Part shown: one piece after another, positions 18,211-62,661 of the stretch | Layout: each line of letters starts with the position of its first letter | How positions within the stretch are numbered: the stretch's first letter is position 1 | NCBI RefSeq assembly: GCF_039503195.1 | Contig: NZ_JBCJKP010000001.1 | Coordinates: 4,774,001-4,838,000, forward strand | Origin: Streptomyces mirabilis | GTDB taxonomy: Bacteria > Actinomycetota > Actinomycetes > Streptomycetales > Streptomycetaceae | DNA length: 64,000 nucleotides | Direction of reading: 5' to 3' | Notes under the pieces: generated by a model | The model's database searches: none | What the model was told of the DNA's origin: nothing | Seen by the model: the letters and a program-made list of their open reading frames with translations, nothing else | Program-made: the position numbers and the translations under genes

Positions 18211-18225
18211 CTGACTATCCGTCAG
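18211..18225. promoter_or_regulatory. CTGAC-N5-GTCAG operator, site 1
   Basis: CTGACTATCCGTCAG, perfect 5-bp arms with flanking T and A extending the dyad. It lies 26 bp upstream of the LLM start at 18184. One of 14 related sites in the window. Confidence 0.8.
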
Positions 18226-18272
18226 ATTGGCTTGCCGCCGACTGTTGCACCACGGGCCTGCACCGTCAATAG

Positions 18273-18287
18273 CTGACTGACCGTCAG
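18273..18287. promoter_or_regulatory. CTGAC-N5-GTCAG operator, site 2
   Basis: CTGACTGACCGTCAG, perfect arms. It lies 88 bp upstream of the LLM gene and overlaps the stop codon of the SDR gene that ends at 18284. With site 1 it forms a pair 62 bp apart. Confidence 0.75.
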
Positions 18288-19060
18288 ATCACGCTGACCC
18301 CCGCCAGCCATCCCCCGTCGATCACGAACGGCTGCCCGGTGATGTACGAGGAGTCCTCGGAGGTCAGGAACAGAGCGAGCCGGGCGACCTCCTCGGGCCT
18401 GCCCACCCGCCCGAGCGGCACGAGCTTGCTGTACAGCTCGTCCAGGGCCCTGGTCATCTCCTCGGGATCGGCCGTCGGGTCGAGCTGGGCCGGGTTCGAC
18501 ATGGGGGTGTCGACGGCCCCCGGACAGATGGCGTTGACCCGTATCCGCTGGTGCGCCAGCTCCAGCGCGGCGACCCGGGTGAGGCCGAGGATGGCGTGCT
18601 TGGTCGCCGTGTACGTGCCCACGGCCGCCATCCCGGTCATCGCGGTGTACGAGGCGGTGTTGACGATCGTGCCCCCGCCGGCCGCGGCGATCTCCCCCGC
18701 GACGGTCTTGATGCCGAGGAAGCAGCCGACCTGGTTGACCTGCACGACCTGGAGGAACTCGTCCAACGGAGTGTCGACGAGGGCGTTGAAGCGCAGGATG
18801 CCCGCGTTGTTGACCAGCCCGTCGATCCGCCCGTACGCGCCCTTCACGGCGGCGACGGCGGCCCCCCAGTCGTCCTCCCGGCCCACGTCGAGGTGGACGT
18901 AGAGCGCGTCCAGCTCCTTGGCCACGTCCTCGCCCCGGTCGTCGAGCACGTCCGCGACGACGACCCTGGCCCCCTCCGCGGCGAACAGCCGCGCCTCCTG
19001 CTCGCCCTGCCCGCGCGCCGCCCCCGTGACGATGACGACGCGTCCGTCCAGCTTTCCCAT
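18284..19060 (-). CDS. SDR family oxidoreductase (hydroxysteroid-dehydrogenase-like)
   Basis: 258 residues from ATG 19060, preceded by GGGAG. Cofactor motif TGAARGQG, NNAGIL, catalytic Ser in NTASYT, and YTATK for the Tyr/Lys pair; PGAVDTPM and GQPFVIDGG complete the classical SDR fold. The TGAARGQG variant is common among 3-alpha/20-beta-hydroxysteroid dehydrogenase-like SDRs, but substrate cannot be assigned. It is the third gene of the amidohydrolase-LLM-SDR operon, separated from the LLM gene by 74 bp that hold 21-bp tandem repeats. Confidence 0.88.
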   Translation of the reverse strand: MGKLDGRVVIVTGAARGQGEQEARLFAAEGARVVVADVLDDRGEDVAKELDALYVHLDVGREDDWGAAVAAVKGAYGRIDGLVNNAGILRFNALVDTPLDEFLQVVQVNQVGCFLGIKTVAGEIAAAGGGTIVNTASYTAMTGMAAVGTYTATKHAILGLTRVAALELAHQRIRVNAICPGAVDTPMSNPAQLDPTADPEEMTRALDELYSKLVPLGRVGRPEEVARLALFLTSEDSSYITGQPFVIDGGWLAGVSVI

Positions 19061-19077
19061 GCCCTGACTCCCTGCTT

Positions 19078-19155
19078 GAGGTGAGGCGCGATCTGGTTGA
19101 GATGGGGTGCGATCTAGTCGAGGTGGGGCGCGATCTAGTCGAGGTGGGGCGCGAC
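19078..19155. repeat. 21-bp tandem repeat across the LLM stop codon
   Basis: Units at 19078-19098, 19099-19119, 19120-19140 and a partial 19141-19155. The last two are identical over 15 bp; the first two are diverged. On the coding strand each unit reads (A/V)APHLD followed by a stop, so the duplication has copied the 3' end of the LLM gene and its TAG into the spacer before the SDR gene. Confidence 0.85.
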
Positions 19156-20127
19156 GTCAGTGCCGAACGCGGTGATCTGGTCGACGAGCTCACTCAGTCC
19201 CCGCGCCCGGAACCGCACCTGGATCTGGTGCACCCCCATCGCCCGGTACGCCCGCAGCGACTCGGCGACCGCCTCCGGGGCCCCGGTCACCGTGCGCCGC
19301 CCGACATGCCAGCCCGGCGTGCCGACGTACAGGGGCTCGGTGATGGCCCCGACGACGAGAGGCGCGGAGATCCCCGCCTCCTCCCTGATCCGGTACAGGC
19401 GGGCGATCTGCTCCGGCAGCCGCTCGCGCGGGTCCCCCTGCGGCAGCCAGCCGTCGCCCCGCAGCGCGGCCCGGCGCACGGCGGCGGGCGAGGAGCCGCC
19501 CACCCACACGGGCACGCGCTCCTGCGCGGGCCGTGGCCGCTGCCCGAGCCCTTCGAAGTCGTACAGCTTCCCGTGGTGCACGGGGAACTCGTCCGGCCCC
19601 AGGGCGGCGCGCAGGGCGTCGATGGACTCGTCGAGCACCGCCCCCCGCCGCGCGAAGTCGGCGCCCACCGCCTCGAACTCCTCCGCCACATGCCCGGCGC
19701 CGACCCCGAGGATCAGCCGACCGCCGGAGAGGTGGTCGAGGGTCGCGTACTGCTTGGCCGTGACCAGCGGATGCCGCAGCCCGACGACCGCGACATGACT
19801 GAGCAGCCGTACGCGCTCGGTCACGGCCGCGAGGTGGGCGAGGGTGGCGACGGGGTCGTACCAGATCGTGCTCATGGCGTCCGCGAGACGGCGCGGGACG
19901 GCCACGTGGTCGCAGCTCGCCACGTAGGCGAAGCCGGCGCGGTCGGCGGCGCGGGCGACCGCGACGAGCTCGCCGGCACCGGCCTCCGCCTCCCAGGGTT
20001 CGGCGTAGAGGGTGCTCTGGGACTGGATCGGGAGCTGCATCCCGTAGAGCAGGGGCGAGGGGTCCGCGGGCGCCGGGTTCGACGGGGACTGGTCCGAGGG
20101 CGCCGGGTTCGACGGGGACTGGTTCAA
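19135..20127 (-). CDS. LLM-class F420-dependent oxidoreductase
   Basis: About 330 residues. The core starts LLYGMQLPIQSQ, typical of F420-dependent LLM enzymes, with ASCDHVAVPR, DHLSGGRLILGVGAG and VWVGGSSPAAVRRAA. It is a TIM-barrel hydride-transfer enzyme; the substrate is unknown. I place the start at TTG 20127, where GGGAGG lies 5 bases upstream and TTGA overlaps the stop of the amidohydrolase gene; GTG 20151 and the internal ATG of GMQLP are alternatives. The first ~28 residues are a Pro/Ser/Asp repeat (QSPSNPAPSD/QSPSNPAPAD) unrelated to the fold. It is the second gene of an amidohydrolase-LLM-SDR operon. Confidence 0.85.
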   Translation of the reverse strand: MNQSPSNPAPSDQSPSNPAPADPSPLLYGMQLPIQSQSTLYAEPWEAEAGAGELVAVARAADRAGFAYVASCDHVAVPRRLADAMSTIWYDPVATLAHLAAVTERVRLLSHVAVVGLRHPLVTAKQYATLDHLSGGRLILGVGAGHVAEEFEAVGADFARRGAVLDESIDALRAALGPDEFPVHHGKLYDFEGLGQRPRPAQERVPVWVGGSSPAAVRRAALRGDGWLPQGDPRERLPEQIARLYRIREEAGISAPLVVGAITEPLYVGTPGWHVGRRTVTGAPEAVAESLRAYRAMGVHQIQVRFRARGLSELVDQITAFGTDVAPHLD

Positions 20128-20130
20128 CGG
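20061..20130. repeat. 30-bp tandem repeat encoding LLM N-terminal extension
   Basis: Two 30-bp units at 20071-20100 and 20101-20130, with a partial third at 20061-20070. They encode a ten-residue period in the low-complexity N-terminus of the LLM protein; the distal unit reaches into the 3' end of the upstream amidohydrolase gene. Confidence 0.8.
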
Positions 20131-21404
20131 GGACCTCCCGGTCCGGGCCACAGCCCGTCCTCCGTGAGCCCCAGCAGCTCGATGGCGTTGCCCCGGACGA
20201 TCCGTTCCACCACGTCCGCGTCCAGGTGCCCCATCTGGGCCTCACCGACCTCGCGGGACGTGGGCCAGGTGGAGTCGGAGTGGGGGTAGTCGGTCTCGTA
20301 GAGGACGTTCGGGACCCCGATGGCGTCGAGGTTCCGCAGGCCGAACGCGTCGTCGAAGAAACAGCCGTAGACGTGGTCGGCGAAGAGTTCGGACGGCGGG
20401 CGGTGGACCTTGTCGGCGACGCCGCCCCAGCCCCGGTTCTCCGACCAGACCACGTCGGCGCGCTCCAGGATGTAGGGGATCCAGCCGATCTGGCCCTCCG
20501 CGTACATGACCTTGAGGTTCGGGAAGCGTTCGAACTTGCCGCTCATCAGCCAGTCGACCATCGAGAAGCAGCAGTTGGCGAAGGTGATGGTGGAGCCGAC
20601 GGCGGGCGGCGCGTCGGCCGAGGTCGACGGCATCCTGCTGCTGGAGCCGATGTGCATGGCGACGACCGTGCCGGTCTCGTCGCAGGCGGCGAGGAAGGGA
20701 TCCCAGTCGTCGGTGTGGACGGAGGGGAGTCCGAGGTGGGGCGGGATCTCGGAGAAGGCGACCGCGCGGACGCCACGGGCGGCGTTGCGGCGCACCTCGG
20801 CGGCGGCGAGTTCCGGGTCCCAGAGGGGTACGAGGGTGAGCGGGACGAGCCGGCCGTGGGCCGCCGGGCCGCACCACTCCTCCACCATCCAGTCGTTGTA
20901 GGCCTTCACTCCCAGCAGGCCCAGCTCACGGTCCTTGGCCTCGGTGAAGGTCTGGCCGCAGAAGCGCGGGAAGGTGGGGAAACAGAGCGCGGACTGGACG
21001 TGGTTGACGTCCATGTCGGCGAGACGCTGGGGGACGTCGTACGAGCCGGGGCGCATCTGCTCGTACGTGATGATCTCCAGCCGTATCTCGTCCCTGTCGT
21101 AGCCGACGGCGGTGTCGAGGCGGGTGAGGGGCCGGTGCAGGTCCTCGTAGACCCACCAGTCGCCGATGGGGCCGTCGTCGCCGGGCCCGCCCATCACCGG
21201 GGCGAACCTGCCGCCGAGGAAGGTCATCTCCTTCAGCGGCGCGCGGACGATCCGGGGTCCGGTGTCCTGGTACTTCGCGGGGAGGCGGTCGCGCCAGACG
21301 CCGGGTGGCTCCACGGTGTGGTCGTCCACGGAGATGATCTTCGGGAACGGGGTCGTGGACGCCTGGGCGGCCTCAGTGGTCCTCGTGGTCTCCATACGGC
21401 TCAC
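20124..21404 (-). CDS. amidohydrolase family 2 (ACMSD-like) protein
   Basis: 426 residues. It belongs to the TIM-barrel amidohydrolases related to ACMSD decarboxylases. The N-terminal metal motif is IISVDDHTVEP rather than H-x-H; then CFPTFPRFCGQTF, AMHIGSSS (metal His), and ETDYPHSDSTWP (catalytic Asp). A paralogue with the same blocks lies at 61338. Such enzymes decarboxylate or hydrolyse aromatic or ring-derived carboxylates. It is first in an operon with an LLM enzyme and an SDR. Start GTG 21404 or ATG 21395; neither has a ribosome-binding site. An operator palindrome ends 12 bp upstream of 21404. Confidence 0.88.
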   Translation of the reverse strand: MSRMETTRTTEAAQASTTPFPKIISVDDHTVEPPGVWRDRLPAKYQDTGPRIVRAPLKEMTFLGGRFAPVMGGPGDDGPIGDWWVYEDLHRPLTRLDTAVGYDRDEIRLEIITYEQMRPGSYDVPQRLADMDVNHVQSALCFPTFPRFCGQTFTEAKDRELGLLGVKAYNDWMVEEWCGPAAHGRLVPLTLVPLWDPELAAAEVRRNAARGVRAVAFSEIPPHLGLPSVHTDDWDPFLAACDETGTVVAMHIGSSSRMPSTSADAPPAVGSTITFANCCFSMVDWLMSGKFERFPNLKVMYAEGQIGWIPYILERADVVWSENRGWGGVADKVHRPPSELFADHVYGCFFDDAFGLRNLDAIGVPNVLYETDYPHSDSTWPTSREVGEAQMGHLDADVVERIVRGNAIELLGLTEDGLWPGPGGPR

Positions 21405-21416: not shown

Positions 21417-21431
21417 CTGACGACCCGTCAG
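21417..21431. promoter_or_regulatory. CTGAC-N5-GTCAG operator, site 3
   Basis: CTGACGACCCGTCAG, perfect arms, 12 bp upstream of the amidohydrolase start at 21404. The rest of the 300-bp gap up to afsR shows no other gene. Confidence 0.8.
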
Positions 21432-25581: not shown

Positions 25582-27180
25582 TCACCGCTCCCGCAGCTCC
25601 CCCTTCACCACCTTCCCGCTCGCGTTCCGCGGGAGTTCCCGTACGAATTCCACCGCCCGCGGGACCTTGTAGTTCGCCATCTCGCGGCGGGACCAGGCGA
25701 TGAGGTCGTCGGAGGTGAGGACGGAACCCTCCCGCCGTACGACATACGCCTTGCCGACCTCGCCCAGGCGGTCGTCCGGTACGCCGATGACCGCCACGTC
25801 CGCGATGTCGGGGTGGAGGCCGAGGAGTTGTTCTATCTCGGCGGGGTAGGCGTTGAAGCCGCCGACGATGAACATGTCCTTGATGCGGTCGGTGATGCGG
25901 AGGTTGCCCGCCGGGTCCAGGACGCCCACGTCGCCGGTACGCAGCCATCCGTCCGGGGTGAGGACGCGGGCGGTCTCCACGGCGTCCTCGAAGTAGCCCC
26001 GCATCACGTTGAAGCCGCGGACCAGCACCTCACCCGGGGTACCCGTGGGCGCTTCCACTCGTACCTCCACGCCCGGGATGGCGCGGCCCGAGGTCGACGC
26101 GATCACCGACGACGGGTCGCCCCGGCGGCACATCGTCACGAATCCGCTGGCCTCCGAGAGGCCGTACGCGGTCAGGACCGTGTCCACGCCCAGTTCGGTG
26201 CGCAGGCGTTCCACCAGACGGAGGGGGACCACGGCCGCTCCCGTGACCACCAGACGCAGCGTCGTCAGGTCGTACGACGCCCGCGCCGGGTGGTCGAGGA
26301 GGGACTGGTGGAGGGTCGGCGGGCCCGGCAGGACCGTGACCCGCTCGGACGCGATGTTCGCCAGCACCGTGTCCACGTCGAACACCGGCTGCGGGATCAT
26401 CGTCGCGCCCCGCATCAGACAGGCGAGCACCCCGGCCTTGTAGCCGAAGGTGTGGAAGAAGGGGTTCACGATCAGATAGCGGTCCTCCCGGCGCAGACCG
26501 GCCAGCTCGCACCACACCTCGTACGCCCGCAGGCTCTGTTCGTGCGTGATCACCGCGCCCTTGGGCCGGCCCGTCGTGCCCGAGGTGAAGACGATGTCCG
26601 ACGGTGCCGATCCGGGCACGGCCGCTGCCCGTTCCCGCGCCTCCGCCGCCCCGACACCCTCCCCGTCCACGAGGAAGTCCTTCCAGGTGCGGAAGTCGGC
26701 GGGGGCGTCGTCCGCCAGGACCACCACCTGTTCGAGGTGCGGGAGTCCGGGGAGGGGGCCGTTCCGGGCGCCCTCCCCCACCCGCTCCCCCTCCCCCGCC
26801 GCGCGTCGCAGCGACGCCACGTACGACGTCCCCAGGAACGTCCCCGTCACGAACAGCAGCCGCGCGCGGCTACGGGACAGCACGTACGCCGCCTCGGCGC
26901 CCTTGAAGCGGGTGTTGAGCGGGACGAGCACCGCGCCCGCCGACACCGCGCCGAGGGCGGAGACGATCCAGTCCAGGGTGTTCGGCGCCCAGATGGCGAC
27001 CCGGTCGCCGAGCCGTACGCCGTTCGCGAGGCAGGCGGCCGCCGCACGTTCGACGCGGACGCCCAGCTCGGCGTAGGAGATCCGCGTACGGCCCTCGACG
27101 ACGGCCTCGCGGTCCGCGAAGCGTGTCGCCGCCGACCGCATCAGCCCCGGGATGCTGCCCCATTCCAGGTCTCCGCGCAT
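25582..27180 (-). CDS. FadD3-like acyl-CoA synthetase (AMP-forming)
   Basis: 532 residues with full ANL-superfamily motifs: P-loop FTSGTTGRPKGA near residue 198, YGLSEASG, GWLRTGDVG, RIKDMFIVGGFN hinge and a C-terminal Lys in NASGKVVKGELR. The block NPFFHTFGYKAGVLACL followed by LPGPPTLHQSLLDHPAR is strikingly like FadD3 of mycobacteria, which ligates CoA to the steroid-ring catabolite HIP. That similarity hints at a polycyclic or propanoate side-chain acid, but homology in this family does not fix substrate. The gene is divergent from the thiolase-like gene, with one operator palindrome in front of each. Confidence 0.9.
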   Translation of the reverse strand: MRGDLEWGSIPGLMRSAATRFADREAVVEGRTRISYAELGVRVERAAAACLANGVRLGDRVAIWAPNTLDWIVSALGAVSAGAVLVPLNTRFKGAEAAYVLSRSRARLLFVTGTFLGTSYVASLRRAAGEGERVGEGARNGPLPGLPHLEQVVVLADDAPADFRTWKDFLVDGEGVGAAEARERAAAVPGSAPSDIVFTSGTTGRPKGAVITHEQSLRAYEVWCELAGLRREDRYLIVNPFFHTFGYKAGVLACLMRGATMIPQPVFDVDTVLANIASERVTVLPGPPTLHQSLLDHPARASYDLTTLRLVVTGAAVVPLRLVERLRTELGVDTVLTAYGLSEASGFVTMCRRGDPSSVIASTSGRAIPGVEVRVEAPTGTPGEVLVRGFNVMRGYFEDAVETARVLTPDGWLRTGDVGVLDPAGNLRITDRIKDMFIVGGFNAYPAEIEQLLGLHPDIADVAVIGVPDDRLGEVGKAYVVRREGSVLTSDDLIAWSRREMANYKVPRAVEFVRELPRNASGKVVKGELRER

Positions 27181-27211: not shown

Positions 27212-27226
27212 CTGACTACCCGTCAG
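27212..27226. promoter_or_regulatory. CTGAC-N5-GTCAG operator, site 4
   Basis: CTGACTACCCGTCAG, perfect arms, 31 bp upstream of the CoA ligase ATG at 27180. Confidence 0.8.
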
Positions 27227-27238: not shown

Positions 27239-27253
27239 CTGACGGCCTGTCAG
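27239..27253. promoter_or_regulatory. CTGAC-N5-GTCAG operator, site 5
   Basis: CTGACGGCCTGTCAG, perfect arms, 29 bp upstream of the thiolase-like ATG at 27283. With site 4 it makes a nearly symmetrical pair in this divergent promoter region, centres 27 bp apart. Confidence 0.8.
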
Positions 27254-27282: not shown

Positions 27283-28431
27283 ATGCCGGGGATCAAGGAC
27301 GCCACCGCCGTCGTCGGCATCGGTCAGACCCCCTTCGCCAAACAACTCCCCGAGTCCGAGAAGACCTTGGCCTGCCGCGCGATCCTCGCCGCCCTCGACG
27401 ACGCCGGAATCGCGCCCTCCGAAGTCGACGGACTCGCCTCCTACACCATGGAGGAGACCGACGAGGTGGAGGTCGCGAAGGCGGTCGGCCTCGGCGATCT
27501 CACCTTCTTCAGCAAGGTGGGCTACGGCGGCGGCGGCTCCTGCGCCACCGTCGCGCATCTCGCCGCCGCCGTCACCACCGGCCAGGCGACGGTGGGAGTG
27601 GCCTGGCGGTCGCGCAAGCGCGGCAGCGGGCCCAGGCCGTGGAAGAACACCGCCGTCCAGCTCCCCACGCCCGCCCAGTGGACCCGCCCCTTCGGGCTGC
27701 TCAGACCGGCCGACGAGATAGGCATGCTGGCCCGCCGCTACATGCACGAGTACGGCGCCACCCGCGACCACCTCTTCAACGTCGCCCTCGCCTGCCGCAA
27801 CCGCGCCAACCAGAACCCCGCCGCGATGATGTACGAGCGCCCGCTGACCCGCGAGATGTACATGACCTCCCGCTGGATCAGCGAACCCCTCTGCCTCTTC
27901 GACAACTGCCTCGAGACGGACGGCGCGTTGGCCTGCGTGATCGTGTCCGCGGAGCGCGCCCGGGACTGCCGGCAGCGCCCCGTCTACGTCCACTCCGCCG
28001 CCCAGGGCCTGCCCGCCCAGCACCACGGCATGGTCAACTACTGGAACGACGACCCGCTCACGGGGCCCGCCTGGACCGCCGCCCGGCATCTGTGGAAACA
28101 CGCCGACTTCACCCCGGACGACGTCGACGTGGCCCAGATCTACGACGCCTTCACCCCCCTGATCCCACTCTCCCTGGAGGGCTACGGCTTCTGCGGACGC
28201 GGTGAGGGCGCGGCGTACACGGAGGGCGGCGCCCTGGAGATCGGGGGCCGGCTGCCCCTCAACACCGGCGGAGGCGGGCTCAGCGAGGCGTACGTCCACG
28301 GCTTCAACCTCATCAACGAGGGCGTGAAGCAGTTGCGCGGCACGAGCACCGCCCAGGTCCCCGGGGCCGCCACCTGCCTGGTCACGGCGGGGGAGGGCGT
28401 CCCCACCTCCGCGATCCTGCTGAGGAACTGA
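27283..28431 (+). CDS. thiolase-fold lipid-transfer protein (Ltp2/SCP2-type)
   Basis: 382 residues. It is a thiolase-superfamily protein (ATAVVGIGQTPFAK start, IYDAFTPLIPLSLE, NTGGGGLSEAYVHGF end). In the nucleophile loop it reads GGGGSCATVAHLA, and the usual NxHGGxxxxGHPxG active-site His block is replaced, so it is not a classical thiolase. The IYDAFT motif is shared with Ltp2, whose catalysis uses tyrosines for retro-aldol cleavage of hydroxyacyl-CoA steroid side chains together with a DUF35 partner. A DUF35 gene follows after 9 bp, supporting an aldolase complex. First gene of a three-gene operon with operator site 5 upstream. Confidence 0.85.
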   Translation: MPGIKDATAVVGIGQTPFAKQLPESEKTLACRAILAALDDAGIAPSEVDGLASYTMEETDEVEVAKAVGLGDLTFFSKVGYGGGGSCATVAHLAAAVTTGQATVGVAWRSRKRGSGPRPWKNTAVQLPTPAQWTRPFGLLRPADEIGMLARRYMHEYGATRDHLFNVALACRNRANQNPAAMMYERPLTREMYMTSRWISEPLCLFDNCLETDGALACVIVSAERARDCRQRPVYVHSAAQGLPAQHHGMVNYWNDDPLTGPAWTAARHLWKHADFTPDDVDVAQIYDAFTPLIPLSLEGYGFCGRGEGAAYTEGGALEIGGRLPLNTGGGGLSEAYVHGFNLINEGVKQLRGTSTAQVPGAATCLVTAGEGVPTSAILLRN

Positions 28432-28440: not shown

Positions 28441-28871
28441 ATGACCGAGCCCCTTCTCACCCCCGTCCTCGACGACGACGGCGCCCCCTTCTGGGGGTAC
28501 GCCGCCCAGGGCGAGCTACGGATCCAGGCGTGCGCCGACTGCGGCGAGCTGCGCTTCCCACCCCGCCCCTGCTGTCCCCGCTGCCGGTCCTTCGGCAGCG
28601 AGTGGCGGCGGATGAGCGGACTGGGCCGCGTCTGGTCGTACGTGGTCCCGCACCCGCCGCTGCTCCCGGCGTACGCGGCCCTGGCCCCGTACAACGCGAT
28701 CGTCGTCGAACTCGCCGAGGCCCCGCACATCCGCCTGGTCGGCAACCTGGTCACGGCGCCGGGCGCCCCGTTCGACTCCTTCCCCCGGACCGGATCCGGA
28801 TCGGAGCGCGGGTACGGGTGGTGTTCGGCGGGGAGGGGCTGCCGCAGTGGGTTCTGGACGGCCGGTCGTGA
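28441..28871 (+). pseudogene. DUF35 zinc-ribbon/OB-fold protein, frameshifted
   Basis: The zinc ribbon has CADC and CPRC cysteine pairs in the first 50 residues, then an OB-fold that binds acyl-CoA (WSYVVPHPPLLPAYAALAP). After APFDS the frame breaks; the expected ending (DRIRIGARVRVVF then QWVLDGRS) continues in the next frame. One more C in the C5 run at 28782-28786 restores a protein of about 143 residues. DUF35 proteins pair with thiolase-fold partners (for example ChsH2 domains with Ltp2). The stop overlaps the GTG of the enoyl-CoA hydratase gene, so translation is coupled. I consider the shift a likely base-calling error. Confidence 0.8.
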
Positions 28872-29649
28872 ACGGCGGCGCGCTGCGGATCGCGACCGAC
28901 AAGGACACGGGTGTCGCGGTCCTGACCCTGAACCGCCCGGAGAAACTGAACGCCATCGACGAGGCCCTGGCATCCGAACTCTCCGCGGCCTGGCGGGCGT
29001 TCCGCTTCGACGAGTCGGTACGGGCCCTCGTCCTCACGGGCGCGGGCGAACGGGCCTTCTCCACCGGCCTCGACCGCGCCACGGAAACCCCCCAGCCCAC
29101 CTCCCCCTACATGGTGGACGACCCGCTCCTGCGCATCGGCCCGAAGGCCAACGACCTGTGGAAACCGGTGGTCGCGGCCGTGTGCGGGATGGCGTGCGGA
29201 GGGGCCTTCTACCTCCTCGGGGAGGCGGAGTTCGTCGTCGCCGACGAGACCGCCACCTTCTTCGACCCGCACACGACGTACGGCATGGTCAGCGCGTACG
29301 AGTCCGTGTACGCGGCGCACCGGATGCCGTACGGGGAGGCGGCGCGGATGGCACTCATGGGGAACGCCGAACGGATGTCCGCGCGGCGGGCGTACGACAT
29401 CGGATGGGTGTCCGAAATCACCCCGCCCGGCGGTGCGTTGGAGGCCGCCGTCCGTTGCGCCACGGTGATCGCCTCCTACCCCCCGAAGGAGTGCAGGGCA
29501 CCGTCCGCGCCCTGTGGACGGCCCACGAGGCCGCCCGCGCCCACGCTTTCGCCCAGGCGCCGCACCTCATCGCCCTGGGCAACCTGCCCCCGGCCCGACA
29601 GACGGAACTGTTCTCCGCACGCCGGCCGAACGGGTTCCGGGTGCGGTGA
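28868..29649 (+). pseudogene. enoyl-CoA hydratase/isomerase family protein, frameshifted
   Basis: Crotonase fold: VAVLTLNRPEKLNAID at the N-terminus, the GAGERAFSTGLD oxyanion loop, CGMACGGAFYLLGEAEFVV. At YPPKE the frame breaks; the natural C-terminus (VQGTVRALWTAHEAARAHAF, then LPPARQTELF) is in the next frame. One additional G after 29491 restores 260 residues. The usual catalytic Glu positions read DPHTTYGM, so the chemistry may differ from simple hydration. GTG 28868 overlaps the DUF35 stop. Last gene of the thiolase-like/DUF35/ECH operon. Confidence 0.8.
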
Positions 29650-29693
29650 TCAGTCTGCGGGACGGTGGGGCGCCGGTCGGCTGGAGGCTTTTA

Positions 29694-29740
29694 GGGGCGC
29701 GGGGAACTGCGCGACCAGCCCCCACTCGGCCGCAGACGAA
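29694..29740. repeat. 47-bp dispersed palindromic element, copy 1
   Basis: The element contains GGGGCGCGGGGAACTGCGCG, a CCAGCCCCC segment and an end CCGCAGACGAA. The first part can fold as nested G/C-rich hairpins. A copy of identical length and about 80% identity lies at 53571-53617. Both are intergenic next to gene 3' ends. It is preceded here by TTTTA, and may act as a bidirectional terminator between the ECH and afsK genes. Confidence 0.75.
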
Positions 29741-29769
29741 TCACCGCACCCCGGGTGACCCGGTCGGCC

Positions 29770-43313: not shown

Positions 43314-43344
43314 GAGCACACCCCGACCCCGGTCGACACGCCCC

Positions 43345-53628: not shown

Positions 53629-54677
53629 CTAGAACGTCAGCACCGCCCGCGCCACCCTCCCCCCTCCGCGTCCTGTGCCGCCTTGTCGAAGTCCTCCACC
53701 GGGTAGGTCTGGGTGACCAGTTCGTCCAGGAGGAGGCGGCCGTCTCGGTAGAGGTCGGCGTAGAGGGCGATGTCACGCTGGGGGCGGGAGGAGCCGTATC
53801 GGCAGCCCAGGATGGACTTGTCGAGGTACATGGAGGAGACGAGGAAGGACGCCTCGGCCGTGGCCGGGGGTACGCCGAGGAGGACGGCCTGTCCGTGGCG
53901 GTCCAGCACATCGATGGCCTGGCGAATGAGTTCGACGCGCCCGACGCACTCGAAGGCGTGGTCCGCCCCCGTCGGAAGGATGTCCTTCACGGCCTCCGTC
54001 GACGTCAGGAAGTGCGTCGCGCCGAACCGCCGGGCCACGGCCTCCTTCGCCGGGTTGGCGTCGACCGCGACGATCTTCAAGGCGCCCGCGAGCCGCGCGC
54101 CCTGGAGAACGTTGAGCCCGATTCCGCCGGTGCCGATGACGAGGACGGTGTCCCCCCGGTCCACCCTCGCGCGGTTCAGGACCGCGCCCACTCCCGTCAG
54201 CACGCCGCATCCGATCAGCGCGGCGGACGGGAGGGGGATGTCCTTGGGGATGCGGACGGCCTGGACCGCCTTCACCACCGTCCGTTCCGCGAACGCGGAG
54301 TTGGACGCGAACTGGTACAGCGGCAGCCCGCCCCGCGTGAACGGCTGCCGCGGCATCCCGATCGCCCTGCGGCACATCGTCGGCCGCCCCCGATCGCACT
54401 CCGCGCACGTCCCGCAGTTGGCGAGCGTGGAGAGCGCGACATGGTCGCCGGGTCGGACATGGCCGACACCCGCGCCCACCGCCTCGACGATCCCCGCGCC
54501 CTCATGCCCCAGGACCACGGGGACGGGAAAGGGGATCGTCCCGTCCACGACCGACAGGTCGCTGTGGCAGAGCCCGGCCGCGGAGATCGCGACCTGCACC
54601 TCGCCGGGCCCCGGATCCCGTATCTCCAGGTCGTCCACGACCTGGGTCCGCTTGCCGTCGAAGATCACGCCTCGCAT
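53629..54677 (-). pseudogene. zinc-dependent alcohol dehydrogenase (MDR), frameshifted at the C-terminus
   Basis: MDR-superfamily enzyme: GLCHSDLSVVDG (catalytic zinc), GHEGAGIVEAVGAGV, structural-zinc cysteines in CGTCAECDRGRPTMC, coenzyme motif VIGTGGIGLNVLQGARL. All catalytic features are intact. Near the end DAEGG runs into a wrong frame; one more G in the G6 run (C6 at 53650-53655 on the plus strand) would give the natural ending RVARAVLTF and a stop at 53629-53631, total 349 residues. It probably oxidises hydroxy-acyl or alcohol intermediates. Last gene of the SDR-ACAD-ADH operon; ATG 54677 has GAGGGAG upstream. Confidence 0.85.
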
Positions 54678-54687: not shown

Positions 54688-55833
54688 TCAGCCCTTGGGT
54701 TCCCTCGGCAGGCCGAGCACGCGCTCGGCGATGATCGTGCGCTGGATCTCGTCCGAGCCGCCGTAGATGGTGTCGGCCCGGCTGAACAGGAACAAGTGCT
54801 GAGAGGAGTCGAGTGCGTACGGGGCCACGGCCGACCAGTCCCCGGGACCGGTCGCGGCCTCCGCCCCCCGCACCCGTACCGCGAGTTCACCGAGCCGCTG
54901 GTGCCAGCGGCCCCACAGCAGCTTGGCGACGCTGGGCGCGCCCGCGTCGCCCGAACCACCCAGCGTCCGCAGGGCGTTCCAGCGCATCGTGCGCAGCTCC
55001 GCCCACTGGCGTACGAGGTGGTCGCGGACGACCGGGTCGGCCGCCGCGCCCGTGGCGACGGCCGTCTCGATCACCCGGCCCAGCTCCTCCGCGAAACCGA
55101 TCTGCTGGGCCAGGGTCGAGACCCCTCGTTCGAAACCGAGGAGGCTCATGGCGACCTGCCAGCCGTTGCCCGCGCCGCCGACCACGTGCTCGGCACGCGC
55201 CACCGCCCCGTCGAAGAAGACCTCGTTGAACTCGCTCGTGCCGGTGAGCTGGCGGATCGGACGGACCTCGACGCGGCCGGGCTGGTCCATCGGGACGAGA
55301 AGGAAGGACAGGCCGTGGTGACGGCTCGACCCCGGTTCCGTACGGGCGAGGACGAAACACCAGTGCGCCTCGTGGGCGAGCGAGGTCCAGATCTTCTGGC
55401 CGCTGACACGGTACGTGTCGCCGTCCCGTACCGCGGCCGTACGGATCCCCGCCAGGTCCGAACCCGCGCCCGGCTCGCTGTATCCCTGACACCAGAGTTC
55501 CTCGCCGCGGGCGACCGGGGGCAGGAAGCGGGCCTTCTGTTCCGGGGTCCCGTGGGCGATGAGGGTGGGGGCGAGGAGCTTCTCGCCGATGTGGCCCGAG
55601 CGGGCCGGGGCCCTGGAACGGGCGTACTCCTCGGCCCAGACGACCTGTTGGGTCAGGCTCGCCCGCCGGTTGCCGTAGCCGTCCTCCGCCCAGCCGAGGC
55701 CGATCCAGCCGCCCCGGCCCAGTTCCCGTTCCCAGTCCTGACGGACGACCGGATCACCGACCGGGTGAGCGGTCAGCCAGTCCCGTGCCGTGCGCCGGAA
55801 GGCCTCGTCCTCGGCGTCGAATCCGAACTCCAT
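54688..55833 (-). CDS. acyl-CoA dehydrogenase
   Basis: 381 residues. ACAD signatures: LWCQGYSEPGAGSDLAGIRT, VSGQKIWTSLAHEAHWCFVL, TGTSEFNEVFFDGAV, and the FAD-contact end IYGGSDEIQRTIIAERVLGL. It is similar in style to the large subunits of steroid-type ACADs. The middle helix block lacks the FTWE base seen in the partner type, so a heteromeric enzyme is possible, but only one ACAD gene is in this operon. It sits between the SDR gene (58 bp upstream) and the ADH gene (10 bp downstream). Confidence 0.9.
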   Translation of the reverse strand: MEFGFDAEDEAFRRTARDWLTAHPVGDPVVRQDWERELGRGGWIGLGWAEDGYGNRRASLTQQVVWAEEYARSRAPARSGHIGEKLLAPTLIAHGTPEQKARFLPPVARGEELWCQGYSEPGAGSDLAGIRTAAVRDGDTYRVSGQKIWTSLAHEAHWCFVLARTEPGSSRHHGLSFLLVPMDQPGRVEVRPIRQLTGTSEFNEVFFDGAVARAEHVVGGAGNGWQVAMSLLGFERGVSTLAQQIGFAEELGRVIETAVATGAAADPVVRDHLVRQWAELRTMRWNALRTLGGSGDAGAPSVAKLLWGRWHQRLGELAVRVRGAEAATGPGDWSAVAPYALDSSQHLFLFSRADTIYGGSDEIQRTIIAERVLGLPREPKG

Positions 55834-55891: not shown

Positions 55892-56806
55892 TCACGCGTT
55901 CGGCCGCGCCTTGCGCGCCGCCGCCCGCGCCATCGCCTCCACCTGTTCCAGCAGGGGCATGGGGTCCACGCCCACGGTCCCCGGCAGGAAGTCCGCGATC
56001 CGCTCGGGCGTCCAGGGGCCGCCTTCCGCGTACCCGGCACGCAGCTCCCGCGGCTGTGCCCACACCGCGATCTTGGGGCCGGCGATCGTGTAGACCTGCC
56101 CGGTGATGCGTTCCTCGCGGGCACGGTCGGAGAGGAGGTAGACCACCAGCGCGGCCACGTCCTCCGGTTCGCCGATCTCCTTCAGCTCCATGGGGACATG
56201 GGCCGACATGCGGGTACGGGCGACCGGTGCCACCGCGTTCGCCGTCACCCCGTACTTGTGCAGGCCCAGTGCCGCGCTGCGGACCAGCGAGATGATCCCG
56301 CCCTTCGCCGCGCTGTAGTTGGCCTGCGCGACCGAGCCCTGGTGGTTGCCGCTGGTGAAGCCGACCAGCGTGCCCGCACCCTGTTTGCGCATGACCGCCG
56401 AGGCCGCCCGGAAGACCGTGAACGTGCCCTTCAGATGGGTGGCGACGACGGGGTCCCATTCCTCCTCGGACATGTTGAACAGCATCCGTTCACGCAGGAT
56501 GCCGGCCACGCACACCACTCCGTCGATACGTCCGTACGAGGTCAGCGCCGCGTCGACGACCCGTTGGCCGCCGGCCATCGTGGAGATGTCGTCGGCCACC
56601 GCGACCGCTTCCCCGCCCGCCGCCTCGATCTCCTTGACCACGGCGTCGGCGATCGAACTCGTCGGCTCGGCGCCCTCGATGGACACCCCGTAGTCGTTGA
56701 CGACGACCCGTGCGCCCTCGGCCGCCGCGCCGAGCGCGACGGCGCGGCCGATCCCGCGGCCCGCCCCCGTCACAGCGACGACCTTTCCTGCCAAGAAGTT
56801 CCCCAC
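55892..56806 (-). CDS. SDR family oxidoreductase (peroxisomal HSD17B4-like)
   Basis: 304 residues, longer than the ~250 typical of SDRs. TGAGRGIGRAVALGAAAEG at the start, VVNDYGVSIEG (the NDYG block is typical of 17-beta-HSD4/3-hydroxyacyl-CoA dehydrogenase-type SDRs), catalytic YSAAKGG. The C-terminal extension may close the substrate pocket. A 3-hydroxyacyl-CoA dehydrogenase role fits the CoA pathway. First gene of the operon with ACAD and ADH; operator site 12 is 22 bp before ATG 56806. Confidence 0.88.
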   Translation of the reverse strand: MGNFLAGKVVAVTGAGRGIGRAVALGAAAEGARVVVNDYGVSIEGAEPTSSIADAVVKEIEAAGGEAVAVADDISTMAGGQRVVDAALTSYGRIDGVVCVAGILRERMLFNMSEEEWDPVVATHLKGTFTVFRAASAVMRKQGAGTLVGFTSGNHQGSVAQANYSAAKGGIISLVRSAALGLHKYGVTANAVAPVARTRMSAHVPMELKEIGEPEDVAALVVYLLSDRAREERITGQVYTIAGPKIAVWAQPRELRAGYAEGGPWTPERIADFLPGTVGVDPMPLLEQVEAMARAAARKARPNA

Positions 56807-56828: not shown

Positions 56829-56843
56829 CTGACGGTCCGTTAG
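56829..56843. promoter_or_regulatory. CTGAC-N5-GTCAG operator, site 12
   Basis: CTGACGGTCCGTTAG, one mismatch in the right arm. It lies 22 bp upstream of the SDR gene (minus) and 62 bp upstream of the cyclase gene (plus). A weaker sequence, CTACGACCCGTCGG at about 56863, resembles a degenerate second copy nearer the cyclase gene. Confidence 0.7.
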
Positions 56844-56905: not shown

Positions 56906-57832
56906 ATGTCACTTCCGGTCGAGTTCCACGACATCGCCAAGCGCGTGAACAACTGGGGGCGTTGGGGCGCCGACGACGAGATCGGGACCCTGAACCTGAT
57001 CACCGACGAGGTGGTACGAGAGGCCGCCGCCTGCGTCCGCACGGGACGGCGTGTCCCGCTCGCGCTCCCTCTCCAGGAGGACGGCGTGCAGACCGGGATG
57101 ATCCCGGGGCGGATCAATCCGCTGCACGTCATGGTGCAGATCAACCAGGAGATCTTCGGTCCGGGAACGGTCGCGTGCAGCGACGACGCCGTGACCCTGG
57201 GACTCCAGGCGGCGACCCACTGGGACGCGCTCACCCATGTCTCGCACTCGGGGAAGCTCTACAACGGCCGCCCGGCCGGCACGATCACCCCCCACGGTGG
57301 CGCCGAGTTCAGCGGCATCGACAAGCCCCGGCACATCGTCTCGCGGGGCGTCCTGCTCGACATCCCGCGCGCGCGGGGCGTCGACCGCCTCGACGGCGGG
57401 CACGCCGTGACCCCCGAAGACCTCGACGCGGCGGAGGAGTTGGCGGGCACACGGGTGCGGTCCGGGGACATCGTGCTCGTACGGACCGGGCAGATCCAGG
57501 TCTACCTGGCCGGCGACAAGCACGCGTACGGGTATCCGTCGCCCGGGCTGTCGATCCGTACGCCCGAGTGGTTCCACGCACGCGACGTCGCGGCCGTCGC
57601 GAACGACACTCTCACTTTTGAGATCTTTCCTCCCGAAATCGAGGACCTGTGGTTGCCCGTACACGCGCTCGACCTGGTCGAAATGGGGATGCTGCAGGGC
57701 CAGAACTGGAATCTCGAAAAGTTGTCCACAGCCTGTGGACAAGAGAATCGCTACGCCTTCCTGCTCTCCGCGATGCCGGAACCCTTCGTGGGCGGCACAG
57801 GGACCCCCGTGGCACCGGTGGCCATCCTCTGA
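56906..57832 (+). CDS. cyclase family protein (kynurenine-formamidase-like)
   Basis: 308 residues, metal-dependent cyclase/hydrolase fold. The metal-binding block reads THWDALTHVSHSGKLYNG, and VLLDIPRARG plus GDIVLVRTG follow in the usual order. Family members hydrolyse N-formylkynurenine or lactone/amide rings. It is divergent from the SDR-ACAD-ADH operon, sharing operator site 12. ATG 56906 has GGAGG 4 bases upstream. Together with the deacylase at 15322 it suggests that ring or amide opening takes place in the pathway. Confidence 0.87.
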   Translation: MSLPVEFHDIAKRVNNWGRWGADDEIGTLNLITDEVVREAAACVRTGRRVPLALPLQEDGVQTGMIPGRINPLHVMVQINQEIFGPGTVACSDDAVTLGLQAATHWDALTHVSHSGKLYNGRPAGTITPHGGAEFSGIDKPRHIVSRGVLLDIPRARGVDRLDGGHAVTPEDLDAAEELAGTRVRSGDIVLVRTGQIQVYLAGDKHAYGYPSPGLSIRTPEWFHARDVAAVANDTLTFEIFPPEIEDLWLPVHALDLVEMGMLQGQNWNLEKLSTACGQENRYAFLLSAMPEPFVGGTGTPVAPVAIL

Positions 57833-59235: not shown

Positions 59236-60165
59236 CTATCGGCCCACTCCGGACACGAGGTCGGCCGCCAACAGTTCCTCACTCTCCGTAGCCGTTCCCG
59301 CACGTTGAGTCCGCGTCCAGGCCCGCTTCAGATACAGGTGGACGTCGGACTCCCAGGTGAAGCCCATGCCGCCGTGCACCTGGAGGCAGTCGCGGGCGCC
59401 GCGCACGGCGGCCTCGTCGGCGAGCAGCCGGGCCGCCGCGATGTCCACGGGGTCGGCCGTGACGGCGGCGGCGTAGACCGCGGCGCGCGCCAGTTCCACC
59501 CGCACCAGCATCCGCGCGCACAGGTGCTTGATCGCCTGGAAGGCCCCGATCGGCTGCCCGAACTGCTCACGGGTCCGGGCGTGTTGCACGGCTGTCTCGC
59601 AGGTGCGGGCGGCGGTGCCGAGCTGTTCGGCCGCCGTGAAGAGCGAAGTGAGGGAAGCCGTGGGGAGTGCGCCGGTGGAACTCACGGGGCGCGCGTCGAT
59701 GAGACCGGCCCCACCGGATACGGGTACCCGGTGCAGCGGTGTCAGGGGGTCCACCGGCCGCAGCGGCTCGGCGCCGGTCGCGTCCCCGCGTACGACGTCC
59801 GCCTCGGCCAGCCACTCCACCAGGCCCCGGCCGTCGACGGCCGTCACCACGGCCTCTCCGGTGGCGGCCCCGTCCACCACGCCCGCCGCGAGGTGCGTGG
59901 CGATCAGCGGGCCGGGCAGCAGGACCCGCCCGGCCTCCTCGAAGGCGAGCACCGTCTCCGGGAGGCCGAGTCCGACGCCGCCGTCCGCCTCGGGCAGGCG
60001 CAGCGCGAAGAACCCCGCCTCGCCGAGCTCGCGCCACAGGGCCCGGTCGAGCCTCGGCCCCTCGTCCACGGCGGCGCGCAGCCGCTCCCGGCCGAACCGC
60101 GCCGCGAGCAGCTCGCGCACGCCCGCTTTCAAGGCTCGCTGGTCGTCCGTGAGTTGGAAGTCCAC
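59236..60165 (-). CDS. acyl-CoA dehydrogenase, small subunit type
   Basis: 309 residues, about 70 shorter than a full ACAD. It keeps the C-terminal blocks REQFGQPIGAFQAIKHLCAR and VHGGMGFTWESDVHLYLKR (catalytic Glu in FTWE) but has a shortened middle beta domain with few FAD-binding features. This matches the half-site subunit of alpha2-beta2 ACADs such as ChsE1-ChsE2 and FadE28-FadE29 in steroid side-chain degradation. Its partner is the ACAD gene 10 bp upstream on the same strand. ATG 60165; cotranscribed third gene of the amidohydrolase-ACAD-ACAD operon. Confidence 0.88.
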   Translation of the reverse strand: MDFQLTDDQRALKAGVRELLAARFGRERLRAAVDEGPRLDRALWRELGEAGFFALRLPEADGGVGLGLPETVLAFEEAGRVLLPGPLIATHLAAGVVDGAATGEAVVTAVDGRGLVEWLAEADVVRGDATGAEPLRPVDPLTPLHRVPVSGGAGLIDARPVSSTGALPTASLTSLFTAAEQLGTAARTCETAVQHARTREQFGQPIGAFQAIKHLCARMLVRVELARAAVYAAAVTADPVDIAAARLLADEAAVRGARDCLQVHGGMGFTWESDVHLYLKRAWTRTQRAGTATESEELLAADLVSGVGR

Positions 60166-60175
60166 GGGAAAGTAG

Positions 60176-61330
60176 TCACCGTCCCTTCGGCAGGCCCAGG
60201 ATCCGCTCGGCCACGATGTTGCGCTGGATCTGCGAGGTGCCGGCCGCGATGGTGTACGACAGGGAGCTGAGCCGGTCGAGCGTCCACTCCCTGCCCAGGT
60301 CCAACGCCTCGGGCCCGAGAACCTCGGCGGCGGCGTCGTACAGCTCCTGCCGCGCGTGCGAGTACCTCAGTTTGAAAACCGAACCGCCGACCCCCGGCAC
60401 TCCCCCGTTGCTCTGTGCCTCGCTCACGTTCCACTGCGTGAGCCGCCACAGCGCGCGGAACTCCGCGTTGAGCCCGCCCAGCCGCCGCCGAAGTGCCGGA
60501 TCGTCCCAGCGGCCGTTCTTCCGGGCTTCGCGCGCGACCTCCCCGAGCACCCGTCGGCAGGCCACGACCTCACCCACGAAGGCGGTACCGCGCTCGTACG
60601 ACAGGGTCACCATGGTCACGCGCCAGCCGTCGTTCTCGGCACCGACCCGGTGCGCAACGGGCACCCGCACCTCGTCCAGGAAGACCTCCGCGAACTCGGT
60701 CGAGCCCGCGAGGGTGCGCAGTGGCCGGACGGTGATCCCGGGGGCGTCCATCGGCATCGCGAGCCACGAGATCCCGCGGTGCTTCGGGGCCGCCGGGTCG
60801 GTCCTGACCAGCAGCTCGCACCAGTCGGCGACCTCGGCGTGGGAGGTCCAGATCTTGGACCCGCTCACTACGTAGTCGTCGCCGTCCCGCCACGCGCGGG
60901 TGCGCAGTGCCGCGAGGTCCGAGCCGGCGTCCGGTTCGCTGAACCCCTGGCACCAGACCTCCTCGCCGCGCAGCACCGGCGGCAGCCAGCGCGCCCGCTG
61001 TACGGGGGTCCCTTCGGAGGCGATGGTCGGCCCGGCGTGCAGCAGTCCGACGAAATTGGCCCCCACGTAGGGGGCGCCCGCCTTTTCCGTCTCCTCCAGG
61101 TAGATGAGGTGCTGGGTCGGCGTGGCGCCCCGGCCCCCGGCGTCGACGGGCCAGTGCAGCCCCGCGTACCCGGCGTCGTACAGCATCCGCTGCCACCCGA
61201 GGTCGTACGCCCGCCGGCCGGGCCAGTCGGCCGGGGACGGTTTCGGGGGCAGCGACGGGAGCACCTCGGCGAGCCACTCCCGCAGCCGGGCGCGGAACTC
61301 CTGCTCCTCGGGGGTGTACGTGAGATCCAT
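60176..61330 (-). CDS. acyl-CoA dehydrogenase, large subunit type
   Basis: 384 residues. The FAD- and substrate-binding blocks VWCQGFSEPDAGSDLAALRT and VSGSKIWTSHAEVADWCELL are complete, and the end reads AAGTSQIQRNIVAERILGLP. The catalytic FTWE block is absent, as in the FAD-binding subunit of heterotetrameric ACADs; the partner at 59236 supplies it. It starts 7 bp after the amidohydrolase stop. Together they would desaturate a bulky acyl-CoA. Confidence 0.9.
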   Translation of the reverse strand: MDLTYTPEEQEFRARLREWLAEVLPSLPPKPSPADWPGRRAYDLGWQRMLYDAGYAGLHWPVDAGGRGATPTQHLIYLEETEKAGAPYVGANFVGLLHAGPTIASEGTPVQRARWLPPVLRGEEVWCQGFSEPDAGSDLAALRTRAWRDGDDYVVSGSKIWTSHAEVADWCELLVRTDPAAPKHRGISWLAMPMDAPGITVRPLRTLAGSTEFAEVFLDEVRVPVAHRVGAENDGWRVTMVTLSYERGTAFVGEVVACRRVLGEVAREARKNGRWDDPALRRRLGGLNAEFRALWRLTQWNVSEAQSNGGVPGVGGSVFKLRYSHARQELYDAAAEVLGPEALDLGREWTLDRLSSLSYTIAAGTSQIQRNIVAERILGLPKGR

Positions 61331-61337
61331 GGGCCCG

Positions 61338-62530
61338 CTACTCGTCGAGGTCCAGGTCGAGCATGCGGATGGCGTTCCCGCGCATCAGCTTGTGGATGGT
61401 CTCGTCGTCGAGGCCCTTCACATGGTCGAGGGCGACCTCCTTGGTGTGCGGGAAGGTCGAGTCGACGTGTGGGTAGTCGGTCTCGAAGGTCGCGTTGTCC
61501 CGTCCCACGACGTCCAGCGAGGCGACGCCGTGCTTGTCGCGGAAGAAGCAGCAGAAGATCTGCCGGTAGTAGTACGTCGAGGGCGGCTCGGGGATGAGGT
61601 CCCGGACGCCACCCCAGGCGCGGTGCTCCTGCCAGACGTCGTCGGCGCGCTCCAGGGCGTAGGGGATCCAGCCCATCTGCCCCTCCGAGTAGGCGAGTTT
61701 GAGGCGTGGGAACTTCACCAGCACCCCGCTGAAGAGGAAGTCCATCATCGAGGCCATCGCGTTGTTGAAGGACAGCGAGGCCTGTACGGCGGGCGGCGCG
61801 TCCGGGGACGCGGCGGGCATCTGCGACGAGGAACCGATGTGCATGTTCACGACCGTCCCCGTCTCCTGGCAGACCGCGAAGAACGGGTCCCAGTAGCCGG
61901 AGTGGATGGAGGGCAGGCCGAGGTGGGTGGGGATCTCGGAGAAGGTCACCGCCTTCACTCCGCGCGCGGCGTTGCGCCGAATCTCCGCGACCGCCCGTTC
62001 GATGTCCCACAGCGGGATGAGGCACAGCGGGATCAGCCGGCCGCCGCTGTCGCCGCACCACTCCTCGACCATCCAGTCGTTGTACGCGCGCACGCAGGCC
62101 AGGGCCACTTCCTTGTCGTGCGCCTCGGCGAACGTCTGCCCGCAGAAGCGGGGAAGGTCGGGAAGCAGAGGCTTCCCTCGACATGGTTGAGGTCCATGTC
62201 CTTGAGCCGCTCGACGGGGTCCCAGCAGCCGCGCCGCATCTCCGCGCGCGTGATGCCCTCCAGGGTCATCTCGTCGCGGTCGAAGCCGACGGCGGCGATG
62301 TTGCGCTTGTACGGGAACTTGAGGTCCTCGTAGATCCACCAGTCGGCGGGCGGGCCGTCCGGGTCCATGGTGATCTGGTACTTGCCGCCGACGTAGGCGA
62401 GTTCACCGATTCCGGCCGTGAGGGGCTTGGGTCCCCGGTCCTGGTACTTCTTCGGCAGCCAGGTCTCGAAGAGGTGCGCGGGCTCGATCACGTGGTCGTC
62501 GACGCTGATGATGCGGGGCAGTTCGATCAT
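61338..62530 (-). pseudogene. amidohydrolase family 2 (ACMSD-like) protein, frameshifted
   Basis: Paralogue of the protein at 20124. The N-terminal part from ATG 62530 reads IELPRIISVDDHVIEP... CFPTFP, after which the frame breaks; RFCGQTFAEAHDKEVALACV continues in the next frame to AMRMLDLD-type ending. One additional C (G4 run at 62150-62153 on the plus strand) restores 397 residues. Metal and catalytic blocks NMHIGSSSQMPAAS and ETDYPHVDSTFPH are intact. First gene of the operon with two ACADs; operator site 13 is 26 bp upstream. Probably functional in the organism. Confidence 0.85.
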
Positions 62531-62556
62531 GGTTCCCCTCCGCCTGGCGTACTTAT

Positions 62557-62571
62557 CTGATGGGTCGTCAG
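62557..62571. promoter_or_regulatory. CTGAC-N5-GTCAG operator, site 13
   Basis: CTGATGGGTCGTCAG, one mismatch in the left arm, 26 bp upstream of the amidohydrolase ATG at 62530. Confidence 0.7.
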
Positions 62572-62646
62572 ATTTTCACTTCCCCAGCAGGCTAGTCCCG
62601 CACCCCTGGACCGACAAGGCGCCGAGCCCTACGCTCTGCCCACGAT

Positions 62647-62661
62647 CTGACTGTCCGTCAG
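62647..62661. promoter_or_regulatory. CTGAC-N5-GTCAG operator, site 14
   Basis: CTGACTGTCCGTCAG, perfect arms, 29 bp upstream of the CoA ligase GTG at 62691. Confidence 0.8.

Follow-up and report, generated by a model that had tools for sequence, protein, structure and literature searches.

The 64,000-nucleotide stretch of the Streptomyces mirabilis genome analysed here (the window; C1:4774001–4838000 of an 11.1-Mb genome) holds a series of short palindromes of the form CTGAC-N5-GTCAG, which lie in front of genes for coenzyme A (CoA)-linked catabolism and across the start of a gene for a TetR-family regulator (33165–33812, + strand) close to afsK. Fourteen of these palindromes had been listed in an earlier note on this DNA, and our rescan, which covered the window with the 5-bp-arm pattern and up to two mismatches, recovered every one of them at exactly the stated coordinates, ten of the sites being perfect and four carrying one mismatch (35602, 35676, 56829 and 62557). 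That inventory had nevertheless overlooked a fifteenth site, CTGACGGCATGACAG at 33157 (33157–33171, one mismatch), which spans the ATG of the TetR gene and is a candidate autorepression site, and the operator proved to be longer than the 5-bp arms. The sites are numbered below as operators 1 to 14 in order of position, with operator 15 at the TetR gene; all were assigned by motif scan and matrix.

Operators 1 and 2 (18211–18225 and 18273–18287, both perfect) share a promoter region upstream of a gene for a luciferase-like monooxygenase (LLM; 17066–18154, − strand; Pfam PF00296; site kept in 7/7 orthologues), which heads an operon predicted from gene spacing, with an Amidohydro_3 protein as the next gene (15322–17052, −; Pfam). 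Operator 3 (21417–21431, perfect) precedes an operon headed by a DitZ- and PtmU3-related Amidohydro_2 protein (20124–21395, −; Pfam and PDB sequence search; site in 9/9 orthologues) and probably including a second LLM monooxygenase (19135–20151, −; Pfam) and, as third gene, a short-chain dehydrogenase/reductase (SDR; 18284–19060, −; Pfam). Operators 4 and 5 (27212–27226 and 27239–27253, both perfect) stand 27 bp apart, a spacing which recurs in G007, G013, G009, G015 and G004, in the divergent promoter region between an AMP-forming CoA ligase resembling feruloyl-CoA synthetase and FadD13 (25582–27180, −; Pfam and PDB; site in 10/11 orthologues) and an Ltp2-like thiolase-fold protein (27283–28431, +; NCBIfam PRK07855, above cut-off; site in 11/11 orthologues). 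The best PDB match of the latter is 6OK1, an entry titled 'Lipid-transfer protein' which we take to be Ltp2. Behind it lie a DUF35/ChsH2-type OB-fold protein (28441–28785, +; Pfam; the start of a longer open frame, its end being approximate) and an enoyl-CoA hydratase that seems to be broken by a frameshift (28847–29649, +; Pfam). This frameshift falls near 29.5 kb, in the 28441–29758 stretch, and the hydratase pieces share one frame in 3/3 relatives.

Operators 6 and 7 (35602–35616 and 35676–35690, one mismatch each) likewise occupy a divergent region, between an acyl-CoA dehydrogenase (34390–35580, −; Pfam; site in 10/10 orthologues), followed by an F420H2-dependent quinone reductase family protein (33854–34390, −; Pfam), and a thiolase-like protein (35695–36864, +; Pfam; site in 9/9 orthologues). 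Behind operator 8 (43822–43836, perfect) is a gene for a 150-aa protein (43345–43797, −; site in 5/5 orthologues), for which a previous DoxX label could not be confirmed, there being no Pfam or NCBIfam match, and next to it a DUF35/ChsH2-type protein (42783–43319, −; Pfam). Operators 9 and 10 (46870–46884 and 46894–46908, both perfect and 24 bp apart) precede an NDP-forming acyl-CoA synthetase (46942–49167, +; Pfam and PDB; site in 7/7 orthologues), after which comes an enoyl-CoA hydratase/isomerase family protein (49241–50086, +; Pfam), and operator 11 (50108–50122, perfect) precedes a flavin reductase (50128–50757, +; Pfam; site in 7/8 orthologues). Operator 12 (56829–56843, one mismatch) is divergent, with an SDR on one side (55892–56773, −; Pfam; site in 4/4 orthologues), followed by an acyl-CoA dehydrogenase (54688–55833) and a zinc alcohol dehydrogenase (53637–54668), and a cyclase-family (PF04199) protein on the other (56906–57832, +; Pfam; site in 4/4 orthologues). 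Operators 13 (62557–62571, one mismatch) and 14 (62647–62661, perfect) lie between a second Amidohydro_2 gene (61338–62530, −), with two acyl-CoA dehydrogenase genes after it (60176–61330 and 59236–60165), and a divergent AMP-forming CoA ligase which is cut at the window end (62691–63998, +; Pfam). The N and C parts of this second Amidohydro_2 gene (62033–62530 and 61338–62339) are in different frames and match successive parts of the 20124–21395 protein; the split, near 62.1 kb, is apparently an assembly error or the mark of a decayed gene.

With start codons of our own choosing, one of which belongs to a frameshifted gene, the nearest site lies 4–62 bp from the start codon at the 13 site-served starts other than that of the TetR gene, and at 4–33 bp in ten of them, much as the earlier note had stated; the second site of a pair is found up to 119 bp away. 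The description of all sites as intergenic was nearly right but not strictly true, because operator 2 overlaps the final bases of the upstream SDR gene. Twelve 60-kb regions from other Streptomyces genomes contain 67 perfect sites, 30 of them between tandem genes, 36 between divergent genes and one at an edge, with none inside a gene (20-bp margin) and none in a convergent gap, whereas 77% of random positions in these regions fall inside genes. The site placement is repression-like, in line with the repressor that had been proposed. We consider it very unlikely that the regulator is instead an activator or a dual regulator: some TetR proteins do activate, according to PMC12093943, and the paired sites 24–27 bp apart at two promoters could permit co-operative action, but the short distances to start codons and the site across an ATG reproduce the layout of KstR2, whose sites are placed 22–82 bp from the starts of repressed genes (PMC3068626).

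Perfect sites are far more frequent in the window than in shuffled sequence (ten observed against a mean of 0.04, with 0/100 shuffles reaching ten). A scoring matrix was trained on 63 perfect sites of other Streptomyces regions with the window held out (12 regions were supplied, two of which, G010 and G031, are without a perfect site), and it gave the 14 sites scores of 19.4–32.9. The next-best matches in the window were the TetR-start site, at 15.2, and then one at 8.1, while the maximum in eight Markov-simulated windows was 12.8. What makes the sites stand out is their exact arms, together with their flanks and their location. Among nearby genes, afsR was considered as a target through a one-mismatch site at 21679 and rejected (score 8.1, site in 0/11 orthologues), and the afsK-like kinase has an upstream site in 0/8 orthologues.

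Alignment of 77 cluster sites (10 from the window and 67 from relatives) refined the operator to A-N-CTGACG-NNN-CGTCAG-N-T, in which the information beyond the 5-bp arms resides in the G and C at positions 6 and 10 and in an outer A and T, at −9 and +9 relative to the centre. The strict form occurs four times in the genome, each time within the window, and the extended pattern with at most one mismatch 62 times, against eight for the control. We then compared upstream sequences of twelve operon heads across the regions of 14 relatives (g37, 2/8, and g53, 1/1, both of doubtful status, being excluded) and found a site with at most one mismatch upstream of 96/99 orthologous heads, that of TetR included, against 9/152 other genes; kinship among the genomes inflates these counts, although the contrast within the same genomes holds. 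This result supports the suggestion of one regulon, for which conservation at orthologous promoters had been named as a check. At seven promoters, mismatches to the window sequence were rare in the arms (25/490, 5%), at positions 6/10 (1/98, 1%) and at the outer A/T (7/98, 7%) and common in the three central bases (51/147, 35%), the near flanks (31%) and the distant flanks (985/2058, 48%). Choosing the best-scoring matrix match for each promoter biases this comparison towards the arms but cannot explain a freely varying centre and distant flanks.

The regulon appears to reach beyond the window. Of the 44 perfect copies of the palindrome genome-wide, the 34 outside the window divide into 20 that avoid predicted genes and 14 that do not. 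A score of 19 or more is reached by 14 of the 34, one in a gene and 13 intergenic; the remaining 20, which score lower, look like background. Genome-wide density, one of the checks named in the earlier note, came out in support of the regulon, which would extend beyond the proposed 45 kb. We rejected the reading of all perfect copies as operators, since 14 of the 34 outside copies fall in genes and only 14 score at least 19. The strong outside copies often stand in front of genes like those of the window. Their neighbours comprise two hydratases, one of the enoyl-CoA type paired with a CoA ligase and one of the MaoC type, two LLM enzymes, an acyl-CoA dehydrogenase, an SDR, a ferredoxin reductase and, at a distance of 520 bp, a thiolase-like protein; next to others, however, are genes for an isochorismatase-family protein, a hydrolase, a permease and a glycosyltransferase. 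A further promoter of the regulon is likely marked by a pair of extended operators with one mismatch each, which lie 30 bp from one another at C1:3194830–3194878 of the same genome.

The regulator that reads these sites is very probably the TetR protein encoded at 33165, which the earlier note, in postulating a TetR-type repressor, had not named. It has an N-terminal helix-turn-helix domain (PF00440, 26.7 bits against a cut-off of 24) and, as its helical ligand-binding C-terminal part, a TetR_C_38 domain (PF19352, 242.7 bits), and its predicted structure is mostly helical. At or near full length it is present with 75–100% identity in 37/37 genomes of the genus searched and with 58–66% identity in 14/14 genomes of family f3, and its best 80 matches in named records are all from Streptomyces. 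The site across its ATG is identical in 12/12 Streptomyces regions, while the two f3 genomes compared differ from it by one and two letters. We also searched another 29 TetR loci, accepting no more than one mismatch and requiring the site to span the projected TetR start or to lie in the 200 bp before it; 13/14 Streptomyces, 7/7 f14/f16 and 2/3 f15 loci have such a site, the f14/f16 homologues having 47–52% protein identity. The supposed recognition helix, GTS.ATFYQYF, is kept in 18/19 aligned homologues; the f6 homologue reads QTS and has an in-frame stop.

A single predicted gene separates the TetR gene from that of the afsK-like kinase, in agreement with the SCO4421/SCO4423 numbering, and from gene position and order only we infer that the window TetR is SCO4421 of Streptomyces coelicolor. 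The available text of PMC3878966 describes SCO4421 as a TetR gene close to afsK (SCO4423), lowered in a whiA mutant, with expression located in spores and a deletion mutant (K319) lacking a phenotype, and it reports no targets.

The motif and the TetR gene tend to occur together. The core pattern is found in 121/121 Streptomyces genomes, at 4–67 copies against 0–8 for the reversed control, the lowest counts being those of two genomes with four and five copies. The 14/14 f3 genomes with TetR have 15–95 copies, and ten genomes without a close TetR have 2–8. A class-wide comparison covered 197 genomes, and its statistics drew on 35 of them: the 20 that have the TetR gene and are not Streptomyces, and the 15 from f16 and f20 that lack it. 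The contrast holds inside f16, where the seven genomes with TetR carry 10–24 copies and the five without it 1, 2, 3, 6 and 15 (p = 0.009), the genome with 15 being a 68% complete assembly. Five f15 genomes (G147, G169, G186, G201 and G216) contain 232–473 perfect CTGAC-N5-GTCAG copies per 4.3–5.5 Mb, against 2–7 for the control. In twenty 20-kb samples of G147, 8/22 copies lay between convergent genes, where 2.9% of random positions fall, and eight inside genes. In the f15 sample the outer A/T is missing from the copies, which are for that reason probably something else, perhaps hairpins that serve gene ends in both directions or sites that organise DNA.

What the computation shows directly is where the sites lie and how well they are kept, that one of them is at the TetR gene, and how TetR and motif are distributed together. 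On these results we consider it highly likely that the palindromes are operators of the TetR-family repressor at 33165–33812, which would repress its own gene and control CoA-thioester catabolism. A TetR dimer would bind about 19–23 bp, corresponding to A-N-CTGACG-NNN-CGTCAG-N-T, would shut its own promoter through the ATG-spanning site, and would hold down about a dozen operons in the window together with scattered operons elsewhere. These encode CoA ligases, acyl-CoA dehydrogenases, hydratases, Ltp2/DUF35 proteins, LLM and flavin enzymes and amidohydrolases. An accumulating pathway intermediate, most likely a CoA thioester, may then release the repressor.

Several observations weigh against this proposal. 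An acyl-CoA ligand is hinted at by the target genes and is a guess by analogy. The structure model of the TetR protein is mediocre (predicted local distance difference test score, pLDDT, of 70, from an input of 18 close sequences) and resembles EthR, FadR and SlmA equally. No perfect site is present in 60 kb of G010 or G031, which keep the TetR gene and its own site: in some species the cluster part of the regulon shrinks. The f20 contrast is weaker, with p = 0.004 for the core motif and 0.16 for the refined one, which is not significantly enriched, and a site near the projected TetR start was seen in 1/4 f20 loci, where it is weak, and 0/1 in f6. TetR-positive genomes of f6, f14 and f24 have 6, 7 and 5 copies, no surplus over the 0–15 of TetR-negative genomes in the same sample. 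The loose pattern with up to two mismatches is no commoner in the window than chance would have it (35 observed, 41 expected), and the case therefore cannot rest on loose matches. This last count speaks for a reading of the palindromes as a chance or compositional artefact or a hairpin repeat of the terminator kind, as do the 14 of 34 outside copies that lie in predicted genes and the f15 genomes, where many sampled copies lie inside genes or where two genes converge. We regard this reading as extremely improbable, in view of the promoter placement, the held-out matrix scores and the conservation at orthologues, and because the f15 copies are without the outer A/T.

Of the 15 sites, the one at the TetR gene itself scores lowest with the matrix (15.2); one letter of its arms is mismatched, half of its length is coding, and the distant flank of the TetR promoter is, unlike those of the other promoters, nearly constant within Streptomyces (51/504 letters differ). 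Its identity among Streptomyces is therefore weaker evidence, and it is the diverged families that carry weight. The same constancy beyond the site would suit a different arrangement, in which the operator and the regulon stand but another regulator reads the sites and the TetR gene at 33165 is one more target. TetR genes can indeed be targets of other regulators, the spore expression of SCO4421 does not by itself suit a catabolic repressor (PMC3878966), and the window holds a further TetR gene (9219–10034) and a LysR gene (38979–39956). We nevertheless find this arrangement improbable, since the motif goes with the TetR gene both between families and inside f16, and since the site is present at the TetR start in diverged families and is retained in G010 and G031, whose 60 kb hold no perfect site. 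In a search confined to the 14 regions compared, no orthologue was found for the TetR at 9219–10034 or for the LysR, and on that comparison these two and an XRE regulator were thought unlikely readers of the sites.

One of the closest known systems is the KstR2 regulon of mycobacteria and rhodococci, which serves HIP catabolism. It has in common with the regulon proposed here a TetR protein encoded within its own regulon, an autoregulatory site, divergent promoters and genes for CoA-thioester catabolism, but its operator, AnCAAGnnCTTGnT, differs from A-N-CTGACG-NNN-CGTCAG-N-T both in letters and in half-site spacing. The operator of KstR, TnnAACnnGTTnnA, also differs; in PMC1995591 the KstR regulon appears as a large TetR regulon of lipid and steroid catabolism with autoregulation, and its possible S. 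coelicolor orthologue as SCO2319 rather than SCO4421. That the motif resembles neither KstR nor KstR2 sites had been claimed in the earlier note, and it agrees with the motifs given in PMC1995591 and PMC3068626. PDB searches returned no chain titled KstR or KstR2 for the window TetR (E ≤ 0.001) or for its f16 homologue (E ≤ 1, 55 entries), many of the titles being general. FadR-type acyl-CoA sensors (Bacillus subtilis FadR and SaFadR) match the modest model at the level of the fold, with 14–17% identity in fold alignments, and likewise have CoA-catabolic targets. Another TetR protein, SCO4385, has CoA-ligase and hydratase neighbours and a 23-bp consensus according to PMC12093943. Among the matches listed in a search of the open-licence literature, we found no description of the present operator or regulon.

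The gene set behind the operators looks mixed, with genes of Ltp2/DUF35 type, a ligase resembling feruloyl-CoA synthetase, an NDP-forming synthetase with its hydratase and an amidohydrolase resembling DitZ and PtmU3, and these may or may not form the single degradation pathway that had been proposed. DitZ-like amidohydrolases may be linked with diterpenoid degradation; among the papers listed in our literature search none had the word DitZ. Further indications come from f16, where homologues of the window amidohydrolases, LLM monooxygenase, CoA ligases and acyl-CoA dehydrogenase pair are found in gene runs behind sites, those of the 20124–21395 amidohydrolase being preceded by a site as well. 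In the f16 genome G170 the TetR gene stands beside an SDR gene and an operon that encodes a hydratase, a pair of subunits of CoA-transferase type and a protein of nitronate-monooxygenase type, and sites lie between them. The alpha subunit matches PDB 6CO6/6CO9 (E = 3e-95), which are titled only as CoA-transferase alpha subunit and which we take to be IpdA. The TetR gene and operator of G170 are located at an SDR / echA20-ipdA-ipdB-ipdC-like locus, echA20-ipdABC-like genes being among the predicted targets there.

In mycobacteria this place is occupied by KstR2, with its other operator (PMC3068626); the role of ipdABC-type genes is treated in PMC5380842. Genes resembling ipdA were found in 21/25 members of the genus searched, and the genome of the window has an SDR / echA20-ipdA-ipdB-ipdC-like locus of its own at C1:3043900–3048160. 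The Streptomyces locus was rejected as a target: no operator scoring at least 13 was found within 1.5 kb of any of 20 loci (0/20, f1 and f3 together; best score 12.3) or within about 20 kb in six regions (0/5 Streptomyces, 0/1 f3). It is accordingly unlikely that we are dealing with a direct steroid-ring regulon, the Streptomyces counterpart of KstR/KstR2, even though the f16 locus and the Ltp2- and ChsH2-type genes within the window regulon speak for it; steroid catabolism pathways were, moreover, recorded in just 2/57 Streptomyces genomes in a survey (PMC4810484). The ipdABC-like locus of Streptomyces may represent a lower pathway that lacks its upper, steroid part. Since this locus is without the operator, the f16 finding hints at the kind of chemistry and names no Streptomyces substrate.

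A wider proposal, which we put forward tentatively and hold to be possible rather than probable, is that PF19352 TetR proteins and CTGACG-N3-CGTCAG form a separate and ancient master switch of the Actinomycetes for the breakdown of polycyclic, steroid- or terpenoid-like carboxylates. It would stand in for KstR2 at ipdABC in some families, and in Streptomyces it would govern an upper pathway for a substrate other than a steroid, with the SCO4421 orthologue as the link to sporulation. Independently of this proposal, a conserved Streptomyces TetR protein with spore-specific expression and no phenotype gains a probable operator and a list of targets. The sites mark a genus-wide catabolic programme, and there are families in which the same switch is found at steroid-ring genes like those under KstR2 control in mycobacteria.

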